From contig CAIZZF010000021.1 of NCBI GenBank assembly GCA_903937385.1, positions 1-35,947 of the forward strand: DNA of 35,947 nt. The letters are read 5' to 3'. Positions 18,216 to 35,812 of the stretch are shown piece by piece. Numbering within the stretch: the stretch's first letter is position 1; each line of letters starts with the position of its first letter. Made by a program: the position numbers and the translations under genes. Below the pieces are notes generated by a model. The model did no database searches, was not told the DNA's origin, and saw nothing but the letters and a program-made list of their open reading frames with translations. The stretch comes from an uncultured Holophagaceae bacterium (GTDB lineage Bacteria > Acidobacteriota > Holophagae > Holophagales > Holophagaceae).

Positions 18216-19730
18216 ATGCAGCCCAACCAGTATCGTGATGTGCGCCTTGAGAAGCTCGAGAAGCTCAAGGCCCTCGGGGTAGAGGCCTGGCCGCGCAAGG
18301 CCCAGCGCAGCCACGGCATCGCCGACCTGGCGGCGACCTACGCCGACGCCGAGACCTGGACCAACGAGAAGCTGGAGGGCCTGGGCCTGACCGTGTCCGT
18401 CATGGGCCGGGTGCTCACCATCCGCGAGATGGGCAAGAGCGTCTTCGCGCACCTCACCGAGAACGGCGAGAAGCTGCAGGCCTTCTTCCGCATGAACGAC
18501 CTGGCCGAGCCCGGCTGGGACCTCCTCAAGCTGCTGGACATGGGCGACTTCATCCAGGTCACCGGGCCCCTCATGCGCACCAAGACCGGTGAGCTCAGCG
18601 TCCGCGTGAAGGAGGTCCGCTTCCTCAGCAAGGCCCTGCTGCCCCTGCCCGAGAAGTGGCACGGCCTGCAGGACAAGGAGCAGCGCTACCGCCAGCGGTA
18701 CCTCGATCTCATCTCGAATCCCGATGTGCTCAAGACCTTCCAGACCCGCTCCCGCATCGTCAGCGCCGTGCGGCGCCACATGGAGGAGCAGGGCTACCTG
18801 GAAGTCGAGACGCCCATGATGCAGCCCATCCCCGGCGGCGCCACGGCCCGGCCCTTCATCACGCACCACAACGCCCTGGACATGGACCTCTACCTTCGCA
18901 TCGCGCCGGAGCTGTACCTCAAGCGCCTCATCGTCGGCGGCTTCGAGAAGGTCTTCGAGATCAACCGCAACTTCCGCAACGAGGGACTCAGCGTCCGCCA
19001 CAACCCCGAGTTCACCATGATGGAGATGTACGAGGCCGGCAGCGACCTGCGCGACATGATGGCCCTCACCGAGAACCTGCTGAGCCGCGTGGCCCGGGAG
19101 GTCATGGGGTCCGAGCAGCTGCCCTGGGGCGAGCAGGTCATCTCCTACGCGGCGCCCTTCCGCCGCCTCACCATGAAGGACGCCATCGCCGAGTACGGCG
19201 CCATTGACCGCGTCCTGCTGGACAACGACGCCCAGATCCGCACCCTGGCCCAGGCGGTCCACATCGAGGACGCGGCCACCAAGTCCGCAGGCATGCTGCT
19301 GGGGGATCTCTTCGAGCACCACGCCGAGAAGCAGCTCATCCAGCCCACCTTCATCACGGACTATCCGCTGGAGCTGTCGCCCCTCACCAAGACCCTGGAG
19401 GGCGACGAGGCCTTTGTGGACCGCTTCGAGCTGTTCATCGGCGGCATGGAGCTGGCGAACGCCTACTCGGAGCTGAACGATCCCGTGGATCAGATGGCCC
19501 GCTTCCAGGCCCAGATGGACGAGCGCGAGGCCGGCAACGACGAGGCCATGCTGCTGGACCAGGACTTCATCACCAGCCTGGAGCACGGCTTCCCGCCCAC
19601 CGGCGGCGAGGGCATCGGCATCGACCGCATGGTCATGCTGCTCACCAACAGCCAGAGCATCCGCGACGTCATCCTCTTCCCCCTCATGCGCCCCACCAAG
19701 CCCAGCGAGGCAGCCGAGACGCTGGAGTAA
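18216..19730 (+). CDS. lysS: Lysyl-tRNA synthetase, class II
   Basis: 504 residues, the normal bacterial length. It charges tRNA(Lys). The N-terminal OB-fold anticodon domain covers about 50-145 (VSVMGRVLTIREMGKSVFAH). The class II core follows: motif 1 around SRIVSAVRRHMEEQGYLEVE, motif 2 FEINRNFRNEGLSVRHNPEF, and motif 3 GGEGIGIDRMVMLLTN near the end. CGGAG lies upstream of the ATG. No riboswitch or T-box-like leader fits in the 37 bases before it. Palindrome F follows directly after the stop. Confidence 0.97.
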   Translation: MQPNQYRDVRLEKLEKLKALGVEAWPRKAQRSHGIADLAATYADAETWTNEKLEGLGLTVSVMGRVLTIREMGKSVFAHLTENGEKLQAFFRMNDLAEPGWDLLKLLDMGDFIQVTGPLMRTKTGELSVRVKEVRFLSKALLPLPEKWHGLQDKEQRYRQRYLDLISNPDVLKTFQTRSRIVSAVRRHMEEQGYLEVETPMMQPIPGGATARPFITHHNALDMDLYLRIAPELYLKRLIVGGFEKVFEINRNFRNEGLSVRHNPEFTMMEMYEAGSDLRDMMALTENLLSRVAREVMGSEQLPWGEQVISYAAPFRRLTMKDAIAEYGAIDRVLLDNDAQIRTLAQAVHIEDAATKSAGMLLGDLFEHHAEKQLIQPTFITDYPLELSPLTKTLEGDEAFVDRFELFIGGMELANAYSELNDPVDQMARFQAQMDEREAGNDEAMLLDQDFITSLEHGFPPTGGEGIGIDRMVMLLTNSQSIRDVILFPLMRPTKPSEAAETLE

Positions 19731-19736
19731 AAGGAC

Positions 19737-19811
19737 TCACCACGAAGACACGAAGACACGAAGAAAAGCACCTGCTTTGTTTGACTTCGTGTCTTCGTGT
19801 CTTCGTGGTGA
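19737..19811. repeat. Palindromic element F (ACGAAGAC family), 27-bp perfect arms
   Basis: The arm at 19737-19763 pairs perfectly with 19785-19811 over 27 bp, around a 21-base loop. Each arm contains three tandem ACGAAG units spaced 8 bases apart (ACGAAGAC), preceded by TCACC. It sits 7 bases after lysS and before the degT-type gene. There is no U run after the 3' arm. Related sequence forms the inner arms of element G. Confidence 0.9.
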
Positions 19812-31710: not shown

Positions 31711-31822
31711 CGAGGCCCCGCCGCCGATCCTGGGCACCTGGCCGCGCCTCTATGCGGTGGTGGTGGGTGAGCTGCTGCTCTGCATCCTGGGCTTCTGGCT
31801 GCTGGCCCGGATCTGCGCATGA
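31703..31822 (+). CDS. 39-residue single-helix membrane peptide between deacetylase and symporter
   Basis: ATG at 31703 overlaps the end of the deacetylase gene by 8 bases; the stop overlaps the symporter start (ATGA). The translation is MTDEAPPPILGTWPRLYAVV, then VGELLLCILGFWLLARIC and a final Ala. A short polar N-terminus precedes one hydrophobic helix of about 21 residues. Small one-helix proteins of this kind precede other SSS-family transporters, so it could be an auxiliary subunit. Both overlaps suggest translational coupling, and the hydrophobic pattern argues against chance. The ribosome site is only a weak GGGG. Function unproven. Confidence 0.65.
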   Translation: MTDEAPPPILGTWPRLYAVVVGELLLCILGFWLLARICA

Positions 31823-33525
31823 GCCGCCTGGACTGGCTCGTCCTCGGCGCCGCCCTGCTGTTCGTGGTGCTGTGGGGCCTCTACAAGGGCCGCGGCGCCA
31901 CCACCGGCGACCACTACATCGGCGGCGGCCGGGACCACCGCTGGTGGCTCATCGGCCTCTCGATCATCGCCACCCAGACCAGCGCCATCACGTTCCTGTC
32001 GACGCCGGGCCAGGCCTACGTGGACGGCATGCGCTTCGTGCAGTTCTACTTCGGCCTGCCCCTGGCCGCCATCGTGCTGTCCATCTGGGCCATCCCCCTC
32101 TACCACCGGCTGAAGGTGTCCACGGCCTACGAGATCCTCGAGGCCCGCTTCGACCTGAAGACCCGCCTGCTGGCGGCCTGCCTCTTCCTGATCCAGCGCA
32201 GCCTGGCCGTGGGCATCACCATCTTCGCCCCGGCCCTGGTGCTCTCGGTACTGCTGGGCTGGAGCATCCACGCGAACATCCTCCTCATCGGCGTGCTGGT
32301 CATGACCTACACCGTGGTGGGCGGCACCAAGGCCGTGGCCTGGGCCCACAGCTCGCAGATGGTGATCATCGCCTGCGGCATGCTGCTGGCGGGGCTCATG
32401 ACCGTCCACCGCCTGCCCGCCCACGTGAGCCTCGGCGACGCCCTGCACGTGGCAGGCGGCCTGGGCCGCCTGAACGTCATCGACCCGCACTTCGACCTCA
32501 ACAACCGCTACAACCTCTGGTCCGGGCTCATCGGCGGCTTCTTCCTCATGCTGTCCTACTTCGGCACGGACCAGTCTCAGGTGCAGCGCTACCTGGCGGG
32601 CAGCTCCATCACCCAGAGTCGCCTGGGCCTGCTGCTCAATGGCATGGTCAAGGTGCCCTTGCAGTTCCTGGTCCTGCTGCTGGGCGCCCTGGTCTTCGTG
32701 TTCTACCAGTTCCACACGCCGCCCCTGTTCTTCAACCCGGGCCCGGTGAAGCAGGTGCTGGCGGGCCCCGATGCCGCCGCCTACCGCACGCTCGAGACGA
32801 AGTTCACCCAGGCCCGGGAGGCCCAGAGCCAGCGGGCCGAAGCCTTCGTGGCGGCCCGACACAGCGGCGACGCGGCCCAGACTGAAGCCGCCAAGCGGCA
32901 CTTTCAGCAGGCTCACGCCGAGAGCGAAATGATCCGGCGGGAGGGCGTGGCTCTCATCGAGAAGGCCAACCCCGGCACCAACCCCAGCGACACGAACTAC
33001 ATCTTCCTGGCCTACGTGCTGAGCAGCCTGCCCGCGGGCCTGGTGGGCCTGGTGCTGGCGGCGGTGTTCTCGGGCTCCATGTCCTCCATGTCCGGGGAGA
33101 TCAGCGCCCTGGGGGCCACCACGGTGGTGGACCTGTGGCGGCGTCTCGTTGGCGGCAGCGGCACGCGCGAAGTCTGGGTGGGCCGCCTCGCCACCTTCGC
33201 CTGGGGCGGCTTCGCCATGGCCTTTGCGGAGTACGCCGCCCGCCTGGGCTCGCTCATCGAGGCCGTGAACATCCTGGGCTCGCTGTTCTACGGCACCATC
33301 CTCGGCATCTTCATCACGGCCTTCTTCGTCAAGCGCGTGCAGGGCGGCACCGCCTTCTACGCTGCCCTGGTCGCCGAAGCCGGCGTGCTGCTCTGCTTCA
33401 AGTTCACCGCCATCTCCTTCCTCTGGTACAACGTCATCGGCTGCCTCGCCGTGGTGGGCCTGGCCTACGCCTTCAGCCTCTTCCAGGCCCCCCGGAAGGA
33501 CGCCACCGAACCCCTGGGCGCCTGA
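31819..33525 (+). CDS. Sodium:solute symporter (SSS family)
   Basis: 568 residues with about 13 membrane helices. LVLGAALLFVVLWGLYKGRG opens the first and WWLIGLSIIATQTSAITFLS carries the helix-1 sodium-site region. SYFGTDQSQVQRYLAGSS is the family's loop after helix 6. GLVLAAVFSGSMSSMSGEIS is the sodium-binding helix 8 (Ser-rich). Residues about 315-395 form a soluble helical insert rich in Ala/Glu/Arg (RTLETKFTQAREAQSQRAEA) that is not in the smallest family members. The substrate is unknown. Coupling to the PIG-L deacetylase suggests a sugar or sugar acid, or the acetate set free, but this is inference. Translation probably depends on the overlapping small gene. Confidence 0.92.
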   Translation: MSRLDWLVLGAALLFVVLWGLYKGRGATTGDHYIGGGRDHRWWLIGLSIIATQTSAITFLSTPGQAYVDGMRFVQFYFGLPLAAIVLSIWAIPLYHRLKVSTAYEILEARFDLKTRLLAACLFLIQRSLAVGITIFAPALVLSVLLGWSIHANILLIGVLVMTYTVVGGTKAVAWAHSSQMVIIACGMLLAGLMTVHRLPAHVSLGDALHVAGGLGRLNVIDPHFDLNNRYNLWSGLIGGFFLMLSYFGTDQSQVQRYLAGSSITQSRLGLLLNGMVKVPLQFLVLLLGALVFVFYQFHTPPLFFNPGPVKQVLAGPDAAAYRTLETKFTQAREAQSQRAEAFVAARHSGDAAQTEAAKRHFQQAHAESEMIRREGVALIEKANPGTNPSDTNYIFLAYVLSSLPAGLVGLVLAAVFSGSMSSMSGEISALGATTVVDLWRRLVGGSGTREVWVGRLATFAWGGFAMAFAEYAARLGSLIEAVNILGSLFYGTILGIFITAFFVKRVQGGTAFYAALVAEAGVLLCFKFTAISFLWYNVIGCLAVVGLAYAFSLFQAPRKDATEPLGA

Positions 33526-33565
33526 GGCAAGTCGAGAAAAAAGGTCACTGAAAAAGGCTTTTTTG

Positions 33566-33914
33566 CCACCGATGAACACCGATAAAAACTGATGAAAAGC
33601 TGATAAAGCAAAAGGCTCACCACGAAGGTCACGAAGACTACGAAGAAGAGCATGGCCCCTCGGGGGGCCACAAGGCCCGCACCATCAGGGGTAGCGACCA
33701 CACTGCACGGGTTGGATCCCGGGGGCGGACCCGTGCGGGATGTGTCGGCGCATCTTCGTGTCTTCGTGTCTTCGTGGTGGATCCTTTTTCATTTCAACCC
33801 ATGCGCCGGACCTCCGGCATGGGACGTTGGTGGAGGTCCATCACTGCCCGAATGGGCGGAGCAGGGCCGTTAACCCGGGATTCTTATCATGCTTTTATCG
33901 GTGTTCATCGGTGG
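33566..33914. repeat. Palindromic element G: ACCGAT-type outer arms
   Basis: The outer arms at 33566-33587 and 33893-33914 pair perfectly over 22 bp and are built of two ACCGAT units (ACCGATGA then ACACCGATAA). GAAAAGCTGATAAAG next to the left arm repeats the pattern. The arms are 305 bases apart, because an ACGAAG-type palindrome and two GC-rich hairpins lie between them. Element H carries the same arm sequence. Confidence 0.85.
33618..33779. repeat. Inner palindrome of element G: ACGAAG type
   Basis: The left arm 33618-33645 and right arm 33754-33779 carry three ACGAAG units each. The right arm is identical to the 3' arm of element F over 26 bases. The left arm has two extra bases and small changes (GGT, CTA in place of AC). 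The arms are separated by about 108 bases of GC-rich hairpin sequence. The whole unit is enclosed by the ACCGAT-type arms. Confidence 0.85.
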
Positions 33915-34049
33915 TTAAAGCTTTCTTTGCTGTGACCACAACGGCCCTTGGTTGCGCCATTGCGGATCGCCATATCGCGATCGATGCCTGTGGTTGTATC
34001 GTGTTCCCAAGGCACCCCCCCACAGACGCATTCACTTGGAGGCACTCGC

Positions 34050-35675
34050 ATGGACGGCTTGATGATGGCGTTCCCGCTCACGCTCCCGCACCTCTTCCAG
34101 CGGGCGGCTGACTACTATCCCGAGGTGGAGATCGTCTCGCGCCGCCCGGACAAGAGCCTGCACCGGACCAACTATGCGGAGTTCCACGGCCGCGCCCAGC
34201 AGCTGGCCAACGCCCTGAAGCGGCTCGGCCTGAAGCCGGGCGAGCGGGTGGCCACCCTGGCCTGGAACCACTCCCGCCACCTGGAGGCCTACTTCGCCAT
34301 CCCGCTGGCCGAGGGCGTCTTCCACACCCTGAATCCGCGCCTCTCGCCAACGGACCTCTCCTACATCATGAACGACGCCGAGGACGTCATGCTCCTCGTC
34401 GACGACGTGCTGCTGCCGGTCTGGGAGAAGCTGAAGGCCGATGTGAAGGTGCGCCAGGTGGTGGTCTGGGCCCACGGCCAGGACCTGCCTGAAGGCACCC
34501 TCGACTACGAGCAGCTCATCGCCGCCGAGCCCGCGTCCTACGAGATCCCCGCCATCGACGAGAACCAGGCCGCGGGCCTCTGCTACACCTCCGGCACCAC
34601 CGGCCGGCCCAAGGGCGTCCTCTACTCGCATCGGGCCCTGGTGCTGCACTCCATGGTCAGCGCCCTGCCCGACGTACTCGGCGCGTCCTTCACCGATGTG
34701 GTGATGCCCGTGGTGCCCATGTTCCACGTGAACGCCTGGGGCCTGCCCTTCACCTGCACCATGATTGGCGCCAAGCAGGTCTTCCCCGGCCCGCACCTGG
34801 ACGCCGTGAGCCTCCTGGACCTTATGGCCGGTGAGGGCGTCACCAAGACTGCCGGGGTGCCCACCATCTGGCTCAGCCTGCTGGATGCGCTGGACAAGGC
34901 CCCCCCCGGGACCTGGGACCTCTCGAAGCTGAATGAGATCATCTCCGGTGGCGCGGCCGCCCCGCCCTCCATGATCGAGCGCTTCGAGCGGGACCACGGC
35001 CTCCACGTGGTCCAGGCCTGGGGCATGACCGAGATGACCCCCCTGGGCACCGTGAGCCGCATCAAGCCCAGCCTCGCGGGCCTGCCTGCGGAGGAGAAGC
35101 TGGCCCTGCGCGCCACCCAGGGCCTGCCCGTGCCCCTCGTGGAGGTCCGCGTCGAGTCCCTGGAAGGCCCCGCGCCTTGGGACGGCAAGGCCATGGGCGA
35201 GCTGATGGTGCGCGGCCCCTTCATCGCCAGCGCCTACTTCAAGAACCCCGCCGAGGCCACCAAGTTCACCGAGGACGGCTGGTTCCGCACGGGCGACATC
35301 GTCACCACCAGCCCCGAGGGCTACGTCCGCATCACGGACCGCAGCAAGGACCTGATCAAGTCCGGCGGCGAGTGGATCAGCAGTGTGGACCTGGAGAACG
35401 CCCTCATCGGCCACCCGGCCGTGGCGGAGGCCGCCGTGGTGGCCGTGCCGCATCCCAAGTGGGACGAGCGACCCGTAGCCTGCGTGGTGCTACGCCCCGG
35501 CGCGTCGGCCACGCCCGACGAGCTGCGGGCGTTCCTGGCCCCCAAGTTCGCCAAGTTCTGGCTGCCCGACGCCTACCTCTTCCTGGAGGCGATCCCCCGC
35601 ACCGCCACCGGCAAGTTCATGAAGATGGCCCTGCGCAAACAGCTCAAAGACTTCCGCTGGTCCGGCAACGAGTGA
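34050..35675 (+). CDS. Fatty-acid/acyl-CoA ligase (AMP-forming, AlkK-like)
   Basis: 541 residues from MDGLMMAFPLTLPHLFQRAA, with GGAGG (34037-34041) upstream; the 34 codons before that ATG lack family similarity. An adenylate-forming enzyme, acid plus ATP to acyl-AMP and then acyl-CoA. CYTSGTTGRPKGVLYSHRAL is the AMP-binding P-loop motif. AWGMTEMTPLGTV is A5-like and GWFRTGDIVTTSPEGYVRIT is A7. DRSKDLIKSGGEWISSVDLE is A8, and PRTATGKFMKMALRKQL holds the A10 catalytic Lys. The N-terminal part is typical of the AlkK-type medium/long-chain group. Monocistronic, ending at element H. Chain length cannot be set from sequence. Confidence 0.92.
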   Translation: MDGLMMAFPLTLPHLFQRAADYYPEVEIVSRRPDKSLHRTNYAEFHGRAQQLANALKRLGLKPGERVATLAWNHSRHLEAYFAIPLAEGVFHTLNPRLSPTDLSYIMNDAEDVMLLVDDVLLPVWEKLKADVKVRQVVVWAHGQDLPEGTLDYEQLIAAEPASYEIPAIDENQAAGLCYTSGTTGRPKGVLYSHRALVLHSMVSALPDVLGASFTDVVMPVVPMFHVNAWGLPFTCTMIGAKQVFPGPHLDAVSLLDLMAGEGVTKTAGVPTIWLSLLDALDKAPPGTWDLSKLNEIISGGAAAPPSMIERFERDHGLHVVQAWGMTEMTPLGTVSRIKPSLAGLPAEEKLALRATQGLPVPLVEVRVESLEGPAPWDGKAMGELMVRGPFIASAYFKNPAEATKFTEDGWFRTGDIVTTSPEGYVRITDRSKDLIKSGGEWISSVDLENALIGHPAVAEAAVVAVPHPKWDERPVACVVLRPGASATPDELRAFLAPKFAKFWLPDAYLFLEAIPRTATGKFMKMALRKQLKDFRWSGNE

Positions 35676-35708: not shown

Positions 35709-35812
35709 CCACCGATGAACACCGATAAGTGCTGATAAACACCGATAAAAGAACAATAAAAGACAAGAACACATGTTCCTTTATTTCTTTCTCTATCAGC
35801 TTTTAATCGGTT
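35709..35812. repeat. Palindromic element H (ACCGAT family), degraded
   Basis: The left arm has three ACCGAT units (35711-35746). CCGATAAGTGCTGATA (35722-35737) pairs imperfectly with 35794-35810, TATCAGCTTTTAATCGG. The centre holds GAACA-CA-TGTTC (35767-35778). The first 20 bases of the left arm equal those of element G's outer arm. It lies between the ligase and the opposing transposase tail. The missing half of the right arm suggests decay or a deletion next to the mobile element. Confidence 0.7.

Follow-up and report, generated by a model that had tools for sequence, protein, structure and literature searches.

The window, the whole stretch of 35,947 nucleotides analysed here, carries an intergenic compound of nested palindromes that is flanked by two genes on the + strand, coding for a sodium:solute symporter and an acyl-CoA ligase (Table 1). 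An earlier note on this DNA had described outer arms of 22 bp, perfectly paired and 305 bases apart, and this was confirmed: the left arm reads CCACCGATGAACACCGATAAAA, the right arm is its perfect reverse complement, and the longest perfect inverted repeat found by chance within 500 nt was 18 bp in 200 simulated windows (first-order Markov sequences, each of the window length). Outward of these arms pairing continues imperfectly to the limits of the complete outer element. The inner arms of CACGAAG type, of which the left one reads CACCACGAAGGTCACGAAGACTACGAAGAAGA, lie inside the outer ones as had been described and are imperfect, with a longest perfect run of 10 bp, but the GC-rich sequence that they enclose, which folds into hairpins, measures about 101 bp and not about 108. 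At both levels the arms are arrays of 9-10-bp units, inverted relative to each other on the two sides of a loop. Folded as single-stranded DNA, the complete outer element reaches -115 kcal/mol compared with a mean of -63.2 for shuffled sequences (z -11.36), a stability equalled by 0 of 100 shuffles, and the predicted fold pairs the outer arms and the inner arms alike. A search of Rfam over 33400-34100 returned 0 matches at E <= 5, and a structured RNA identity for the compound was dropped on that ground.

Table 1. Features of the nested compound, its neighbours and related elements in the window.
Feature	Position	Strand	Evidence or remark
Left neighbour, sodium:solute symporter gene	31819..33525	+	PF00474
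Complete outer element with imperfect outer stem	33543..33937	.	45 nt, 78% complementary; fold z -11.36
Left outer arm, ACCGAT type, 22 bp perfect	33566..33587	+	Repeat search, Markov control
Subterminal AAAAGCTGATAAAG	33595..33608	+	Shared with some gene-bearing units and with other ACCGAT palindromes
Inner left arm, CACGAAG array	33618..33649 (approximate)	+	Sequence, fold
GC-rich core	33650..33750	.	Repeated module; elsewhere in source genome with other arms
Inner right arm, CACGAAG array	33751..33779 (approximate)	-	Sequence, fold
Right spacer	33780..33892	.	GTTAACCCGGG end (33869-33879) common to G003
Right outer arm, 22 bp perfect	33893..33914	-	Repeat search, Markov control; in G003 too at same locus
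Right neighbour, acyl-CoA ligase gene	34050..35675	+	PF00501
Lone inner-type (CACGAAG) palindrome	19737..19811	.	27-bp perfect arms (length derived from six overlapping 22-mers); directly behind class II tRNA-synthetase gene
Outer-type palindrome, right arm eroded	35709..35811	.	About 140 bp from contig end

The elements of the compound are repeated in the source genome (3.68 Mb). Allowing up to 3 mismatches, the outer 18-mer was found 48 times in forward and 49 times in reverse orientation, where its reversed control scored 0 and 1, respectively; CCACGAAGNNCACGAAG, with up to 2 mismatches, gave 94 in each orientation, against 4 and 11 for its control, many of the 2-mismatch matches of this query resembling coding sequence. 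In the window and the source-genome stretches L010-L043, where paired arms alone were counted as palindromes, we catalogued 18 outer-only ACCGAT palindromes with a loop of 50-79 bp, 6 ACCGAT compounds with an arm-to-arm distance of 126-448 bp and 13 unpaired ACCGAT arms, some of them near contig ends. The earlier note had proposed that two separate families are combined stepwise, one in the loop of the other, and this agrees with the outer-only copies, with the lone inner-type copy in the window and with the contents of the five further compounds, which differ from that of the focal one. By eye, the inserts sit within subterminal stems of the outer element; since only paired arms were counted, we go as far as saying that the catalogue suggests a preference of palindromes for the loops of resident palindromes.

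The nesting is deeper than two levels, which had been overlooked. The core within the inner arms is itself a repeated module: in L032 a copy of 83% identity lies between arms of GCCAAG type, further copies are found in other surroundings in L034, L043, L028 and L016, and it is interrupted by an additional GC-rich palindrome in L043 and L028. The focal compound aligns at 70% with C19:76755-77130 over positions 1-348 of the 349 of the query; the core and some of the right spacer are common to the two, the inner arms being of CACGAAG and GCCAAG type, respectively. As they align despite different inner-arm types, copying of compounds or exchange of modules also takes place.

The same locus was compared in sister genomes. 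In G003, the flanks of which are 92-93% identical, the right outer arm and the GTTAACCCGGG spacer end are kept, the left outer arm is absent, and a GGGGAT-type palindrome takes the place of the CACGAAG one of the source genome. The locus is without arms in G023 and G030, which retain the homologous tail from GGTTAAAGC onward, G023 with about 6.4 kb of other sequence, and the contig of G022 begins within the region. The right outer arm of G003 is thus followed inward by another palindrome; an insert-free outer form, one of the versions that the earlier note had asked for, was seen in none of G003, G023 and G030. The note had named the same compound in all relatives, with no outer-only copies, as the finding that would speak against its reading; outer-only copies exist and G003 differs, so this does not apply, and comparison of the sequences supports stepwise nesting of two element families. 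Two further expectations fared worse. No target duplication flanking the inner unit was seen by eye, and the suggestion that the outer arms are young found no support, as G003 has the same right arm and another ACCGAT palindrome of the source genome, C26:109783, is shared with four sister genomes.

The alignment with the compound on C19, in which core and spacer parts are common and inner-arm types differ, is what would be expected if the compound had spread or been reshaped as a whole, derived by copying or recombination from an older one (for instance C19:76755-77141), with array units swapped by recombination and no insertion of the inner unit here. We consider this rather unlikely, given that the G003 locus has the right outer arm and the spacer next to it in common with the source genome but joined to a GGGGAT-type palindrome, and that outer-only copies number 18 against 6 compounds.

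A 20-kb source-genome stretch was further compared with four sister genomes for gain and loss of such units. One CACGAAG-type palindrome of the source genome is missing from G022, G003 and G030, one ACCGAT palindrome of G023, accompanied by other extra sequence, is missing from the source genome, G022 and G003, and G022, G030 and G023 carry an insert of some 300 bp, with arms of CACAAAG type, that the source genome and G003 lack. Such units are thus present in some sister genomes and missing from others, which counts in favour of mobile elements. No clear target duplication was found at the filled and empty pairs compared between genomes; possible 7-9-base direct repeats were noted by eye at two filled/empty sites. 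Presence and absence between sister genomes also weigh against the idea that the palindromes are immobile at present and retained because they serve the host, for instance by ending transcription or stabilising mRNA behind genes, and so do a variable unit number, loops of up to 448 bp and the Rfam result. Although the strong hairpin, the position of three window elements close behind stop codons and the one ACCGAT copy shared by the source genome and its four sisters are in keeping with a host role, we regard it as improbable.

The earlier note recognised the palindromes but missed that both kinds of arm flank, in relatives, genes for putative nucleases of the GxxExxY family (PF13366, TIGR04256). 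The source genome has one member, above both curated cut-offs, which belongs to the ACCGAT group and is not flanked by arms on both sides; next to it lies leuS (assigned by Pfam), and some 70 bp behind the gene there is an ACCGAT palindrome. A relative in G016, 81% identical, is likewise beside leuS. The nearest named relatives of the protein come from Holophagaceae and Geothrix, hence the host is Geothrix-like. No CACGAAG-type GxxExxY gene was found in the source genome, so the inner unit would need a past or foreign partner. ACCGAT arms surround GxxExxY genes in relatives at, for example, L120, L129, L186 and L225, and CACGAAG arms do so at L114, L173, L180 and L229.

Matches to GxxExxY were found in 40 of the 47 genomes of the genus, 163 in total, and arm type was taken from 89 of these, the sample including 60 extra matches chosen with three near a contig start skipped. 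Flanking inverted repeats exceeded the shuffle threshold, that is, an upstream/downstream pairing above the 99th percentile of shuffles, in 65 of 89 distinct genes (from 66 of 90 rows, L216 at a contig edge and L232, the same gene as L132, being dropped). The passing genes mostly have inverted short-unit arrays nearby, at least four of the 65 (L200, L204, L210 and L230) having GC-rich palindromes that are not unit arrays, and 24 of the 89 are without arms. In a cross-phylum set of 80 named loci from bacteria and archaea, of which 6 at contig edges were left out, 66 of 74 testable loci were above threshold; about ten loci are from Holophagaceae and for the most part overlap with the genus set, and several of the 66, among them L274, L302, L335, L344 and L310, are by eye not unit arrays. 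Random segments passed in 18 of 200 cases, and mismatched upstream/downstream pairs passed in 18% for the genus and 44% for the cross-phylum set, the latter value because unit types are shared. In both sets the distance from gene to arm is often a few to tens of bases, and records of GxxExxY with arrays come from more than 10 bacterial phyla, together with two archaeal records. The occurrence of palindrome arms of the same kinds around a small nuclease-like gene in many bacteria suggests that small mobile elements of this sort are widespread and have been little studied.

A filled and empty comparison is also available for the gene-bearing form. In the interval between ftsA and ftsZ, identified by Pfam on L119, arms and gene lie directly behind the ftsA stop codon in G061, G009, G020 and G024, and a short spacer alone is present in 8 of 8 other genomes searched. 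The units in these four genomes (L119, L113, L118 and L116) are of the CGGAG arm type. At L115 and L117 the gene downstream of the GxxExxY unit reads like, and is presumably, rpoC.

The type of arm follows the GxxExxY protein tree, with 14 changes for 55 labelled rows in 12 states (labels scoring <26 left out), where 300 shuffles of the labels needed 40.5 on average and at least 33; this pattern could come from linked inheritance alone. ACCGAT counts have a median of 30.5 in 12 genomes with a cognate GxxExxY gene and of 3 in 35 without (P 9e-5), where a cognate gene is one of at least 63% identity to that of the source genome. This line was drawn once the tree had been viewed, and the genomes compared are relatives of each other. 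The difference persists when the source genome, G022, G023, G030 and G003 are taken out (P 0.002). There are exceptions in both directions, with many copies and no gene at this identity in G017 (73) and G003 (38), and few copies beside a cognate gene in G062 (3) and G068 (6). A motif, AAAAGCTGAT, is found with at most 1 mismatch in 18 of 24 source-genome palindromes, in 3 of 8 ACCGAT/ACAGAT gene units and in 1 of 81 other GxxExxY loci, and the three gene units with it form the group nearest to the GxxExxY protein of the source genome.

A second gene family is found in similar arms. Genes of the four-helix-bundle family PF05635 (23S_rRNA_IVP) in the genus had arms above threshold in 12 of 12 tested (L233-L237, L239, L240, L242, L243, L245, L247 and L248), which were taken from 18 matches, and their flanking units, for example CTATCAG and CAGTCTT, differ from the GxxExxY ones. 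As these genes also lie between inverted unit arrays, the layout does not require a nuclease. The source genome yielded no PF05635 match, and a four-helix-bundle partner for its palindromes was rejected for this reason.

These data bear on the alternative that an unrelated enzyme, such as a Y1/RAYT-type or other IS transposase, moves the palindromes, and that GxxExxY and other small genes are passengers in their loops. The non-nuclease PF05635 genes in similar arms are consistent with it, as are the CACGAAG palindromes of a genome in which no cognate gene was found and the richness of G017 and G003 in ACCGAT copies with no close gene. The agreement of arm type with the GxxExxY tree, the higher ACCGAT counts that accompany a cognate gene and the often short distances between gene and arm point the other way, and we hold passengers to be an unlikely explanation, though one that keeps appreciable weight.

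The GxxExxY protein has the residues, and by structure prediction possibly the fold, of a small PD-(D/E)XK nuclease. D61, E71, K73, Q85 and Y89 are invariant among 13 diverse members, and D61, E71 and K73 also among 36 closer ones, in which Y89 is nearly so; the catalytic D...ExK residues of the PD-(D/E)XK superfamily are thus present in both sets. The D...ExK pattern with QxxxY marks RecB/Cas4-like nucleases. A structure predicted for the G022 protein, which is 97% identical to that of the source genome, had a pLDDT of 95.9, and its best structural match by VIA-align was SSO0001 (Z 9.5), which we take to be a Cas4 protein, followed by a Wolbachia CinA-CinB entry (Z 8.1) and the resolvase Hjc (7.7), where a Z below 8 may reflect a common arrangement alone; many of the lower rows are nucleases. 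Foldseek with the same model gave no match at E <= 0.001.

In light of these results, the reading that we favour, with modest confidence, is that the compound consists of gene-less, REPIN-like derivatives of GxxExxY elements, nested by insertion into loops and presumably moved by a nuclease. Two or more small gene-less mobile elements would be combined, one inserted in the loop of the other, each belonging to a large class in which two inverted arrays of 9-10-bp tandem units surround a loop and in which gene-bearing members carry one small GxxExxY gene in that loop. The gene-less palindromes would keep the arms and part of the subterminal sequence of the gene-bearing form, as REPINs and MITEs do, and their arms would be recognised by GxxExxY nucleases, present or past. 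In the most likely mechanism, the cognate nuclease would bind the unit arrays, the period of which is near one helical turn, and cut the palindrome when extruded as a hairpin or cruciform, with repair of the break copying or moving the element. Once extruded, a palindrome takes the form of a hairpin or four-way junction, a substrate in keeping with a PD-(D/E)XK-type fold. The loop of a resident palindrome could then be a preferred or harmless landing site, giving rise to nested dolls. Repetition, lone and compound forms, presence and absence, the gene between inverted arms, arm type by clade and copy number come from comparison of genomes; the binding of arrays, the cutting, the copying and the choice of loops by GxxExxY are what we infer. 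What speaks against this reading is that the genomes compared revealed neither movement nor a clear target duplication.

A broader proposal, which we put forward tentatively as possible rather than probable, is that GxxExxY and the arrays form a widespread mobile class in which extruded palindromes are cut, and the unit thereby moved, by a Cas4- or resolvase-like nuclease in place of a transposase. Changes in the array unit, of which ACCGAT, ACGGAT, CACGAAG, GCCAAG, CGGAG, AGGATT, GGGGAT and more have been named, would lead to many parallel specificities, gene-less copies would increase in number alongside the gene, and insertion of palindromes into one another's loops would build dolls with as many as four levels.

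The arrangement resembles that of REPIN and RAYT, described in PMC3116915 as many short intergenic palindromes with two inverted arms and a loop, and a single-copy partner gene beside a copy. The focal families likewise consist of paired inverted arms in many intergenic copies in the source genome, and its one GxxExxY gene, with leuS and a palindrome close by, is placed like the RAYT gene. Unlike in REPINs, however, the arms are tandem arrays of 9-10-bp units, a protein of PD-(D/E)XK type takes the presumed partner role that a Y1 transposase has in RAYT systems, and the gene lies between the arms in many relatives. The elements are also similar to MITEs in being small and gene-less, with terminal inverted repeats, many copies and a relation to gene-bearing elements, but their ends are arrays of short units, no clear target duplication accompanies them at the pairs compared, and the presumed partner is not a DDE transposase, the related gene-bearing form carrying a nuclease-like gene. 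Intervening sequences of 23S rRNA with the S23 (PF05635) gene, a small gene between stem-forming inverted ends, are discussed in PMC4990558 as a selfish or once-mobile element. The PF05635 genes of the genus, between inverted unit arrays, are comparable; unlike those sequences, the focal compound lies outside rRNA genes and in a genome with no PF05635 match. In the libraries and literature searched, which cover few subscription journals, no family name was found for ACCGAT- or CACGAAG-like array palindromes, and GxxExxY was named in passing, with no account tying it to inverted arrays.

GxxExxY proteins have a name but no function, and linking them to array palindromes gives each a partner, makes the origin of the repeats testable via a single small gene and sets a system with a nuclease beside that of REPIN and RAYT. 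The nested compounds, in addition, record the order of insertion.

Several minor observations concern the position and shape of the palindromes. In the window, three elements closely follow stop codons, palindromes starting from a few to about 40 bases past the stop codon (19728-19740; 33523-33566), and palindromes in this position are also found among the gain and loss units and the ftsA-ftsZ units. In L012 and L031, ACCGAT arms point away from each other over a common spacer, and in L031 there are two entire palindromes, one on each side of the spacer, resembling a tandem mosaic. One palindrome arm in L018 and L021 has many more 10-bp units than the opposite arm, which suggests that the number of units changes one-sidedly by slippage. 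At the start of C3 (L010) and the end of C9 (L018), next to ACCGAT palindromes, one and the same flank occurs in opposite orientations, and thus ACCGAT elements probably break the assembly; copies lie at or near contig ends in L010, L018, L029 and L035 and at the end of the window itself, so that palindromes of this kind may break assemblies.
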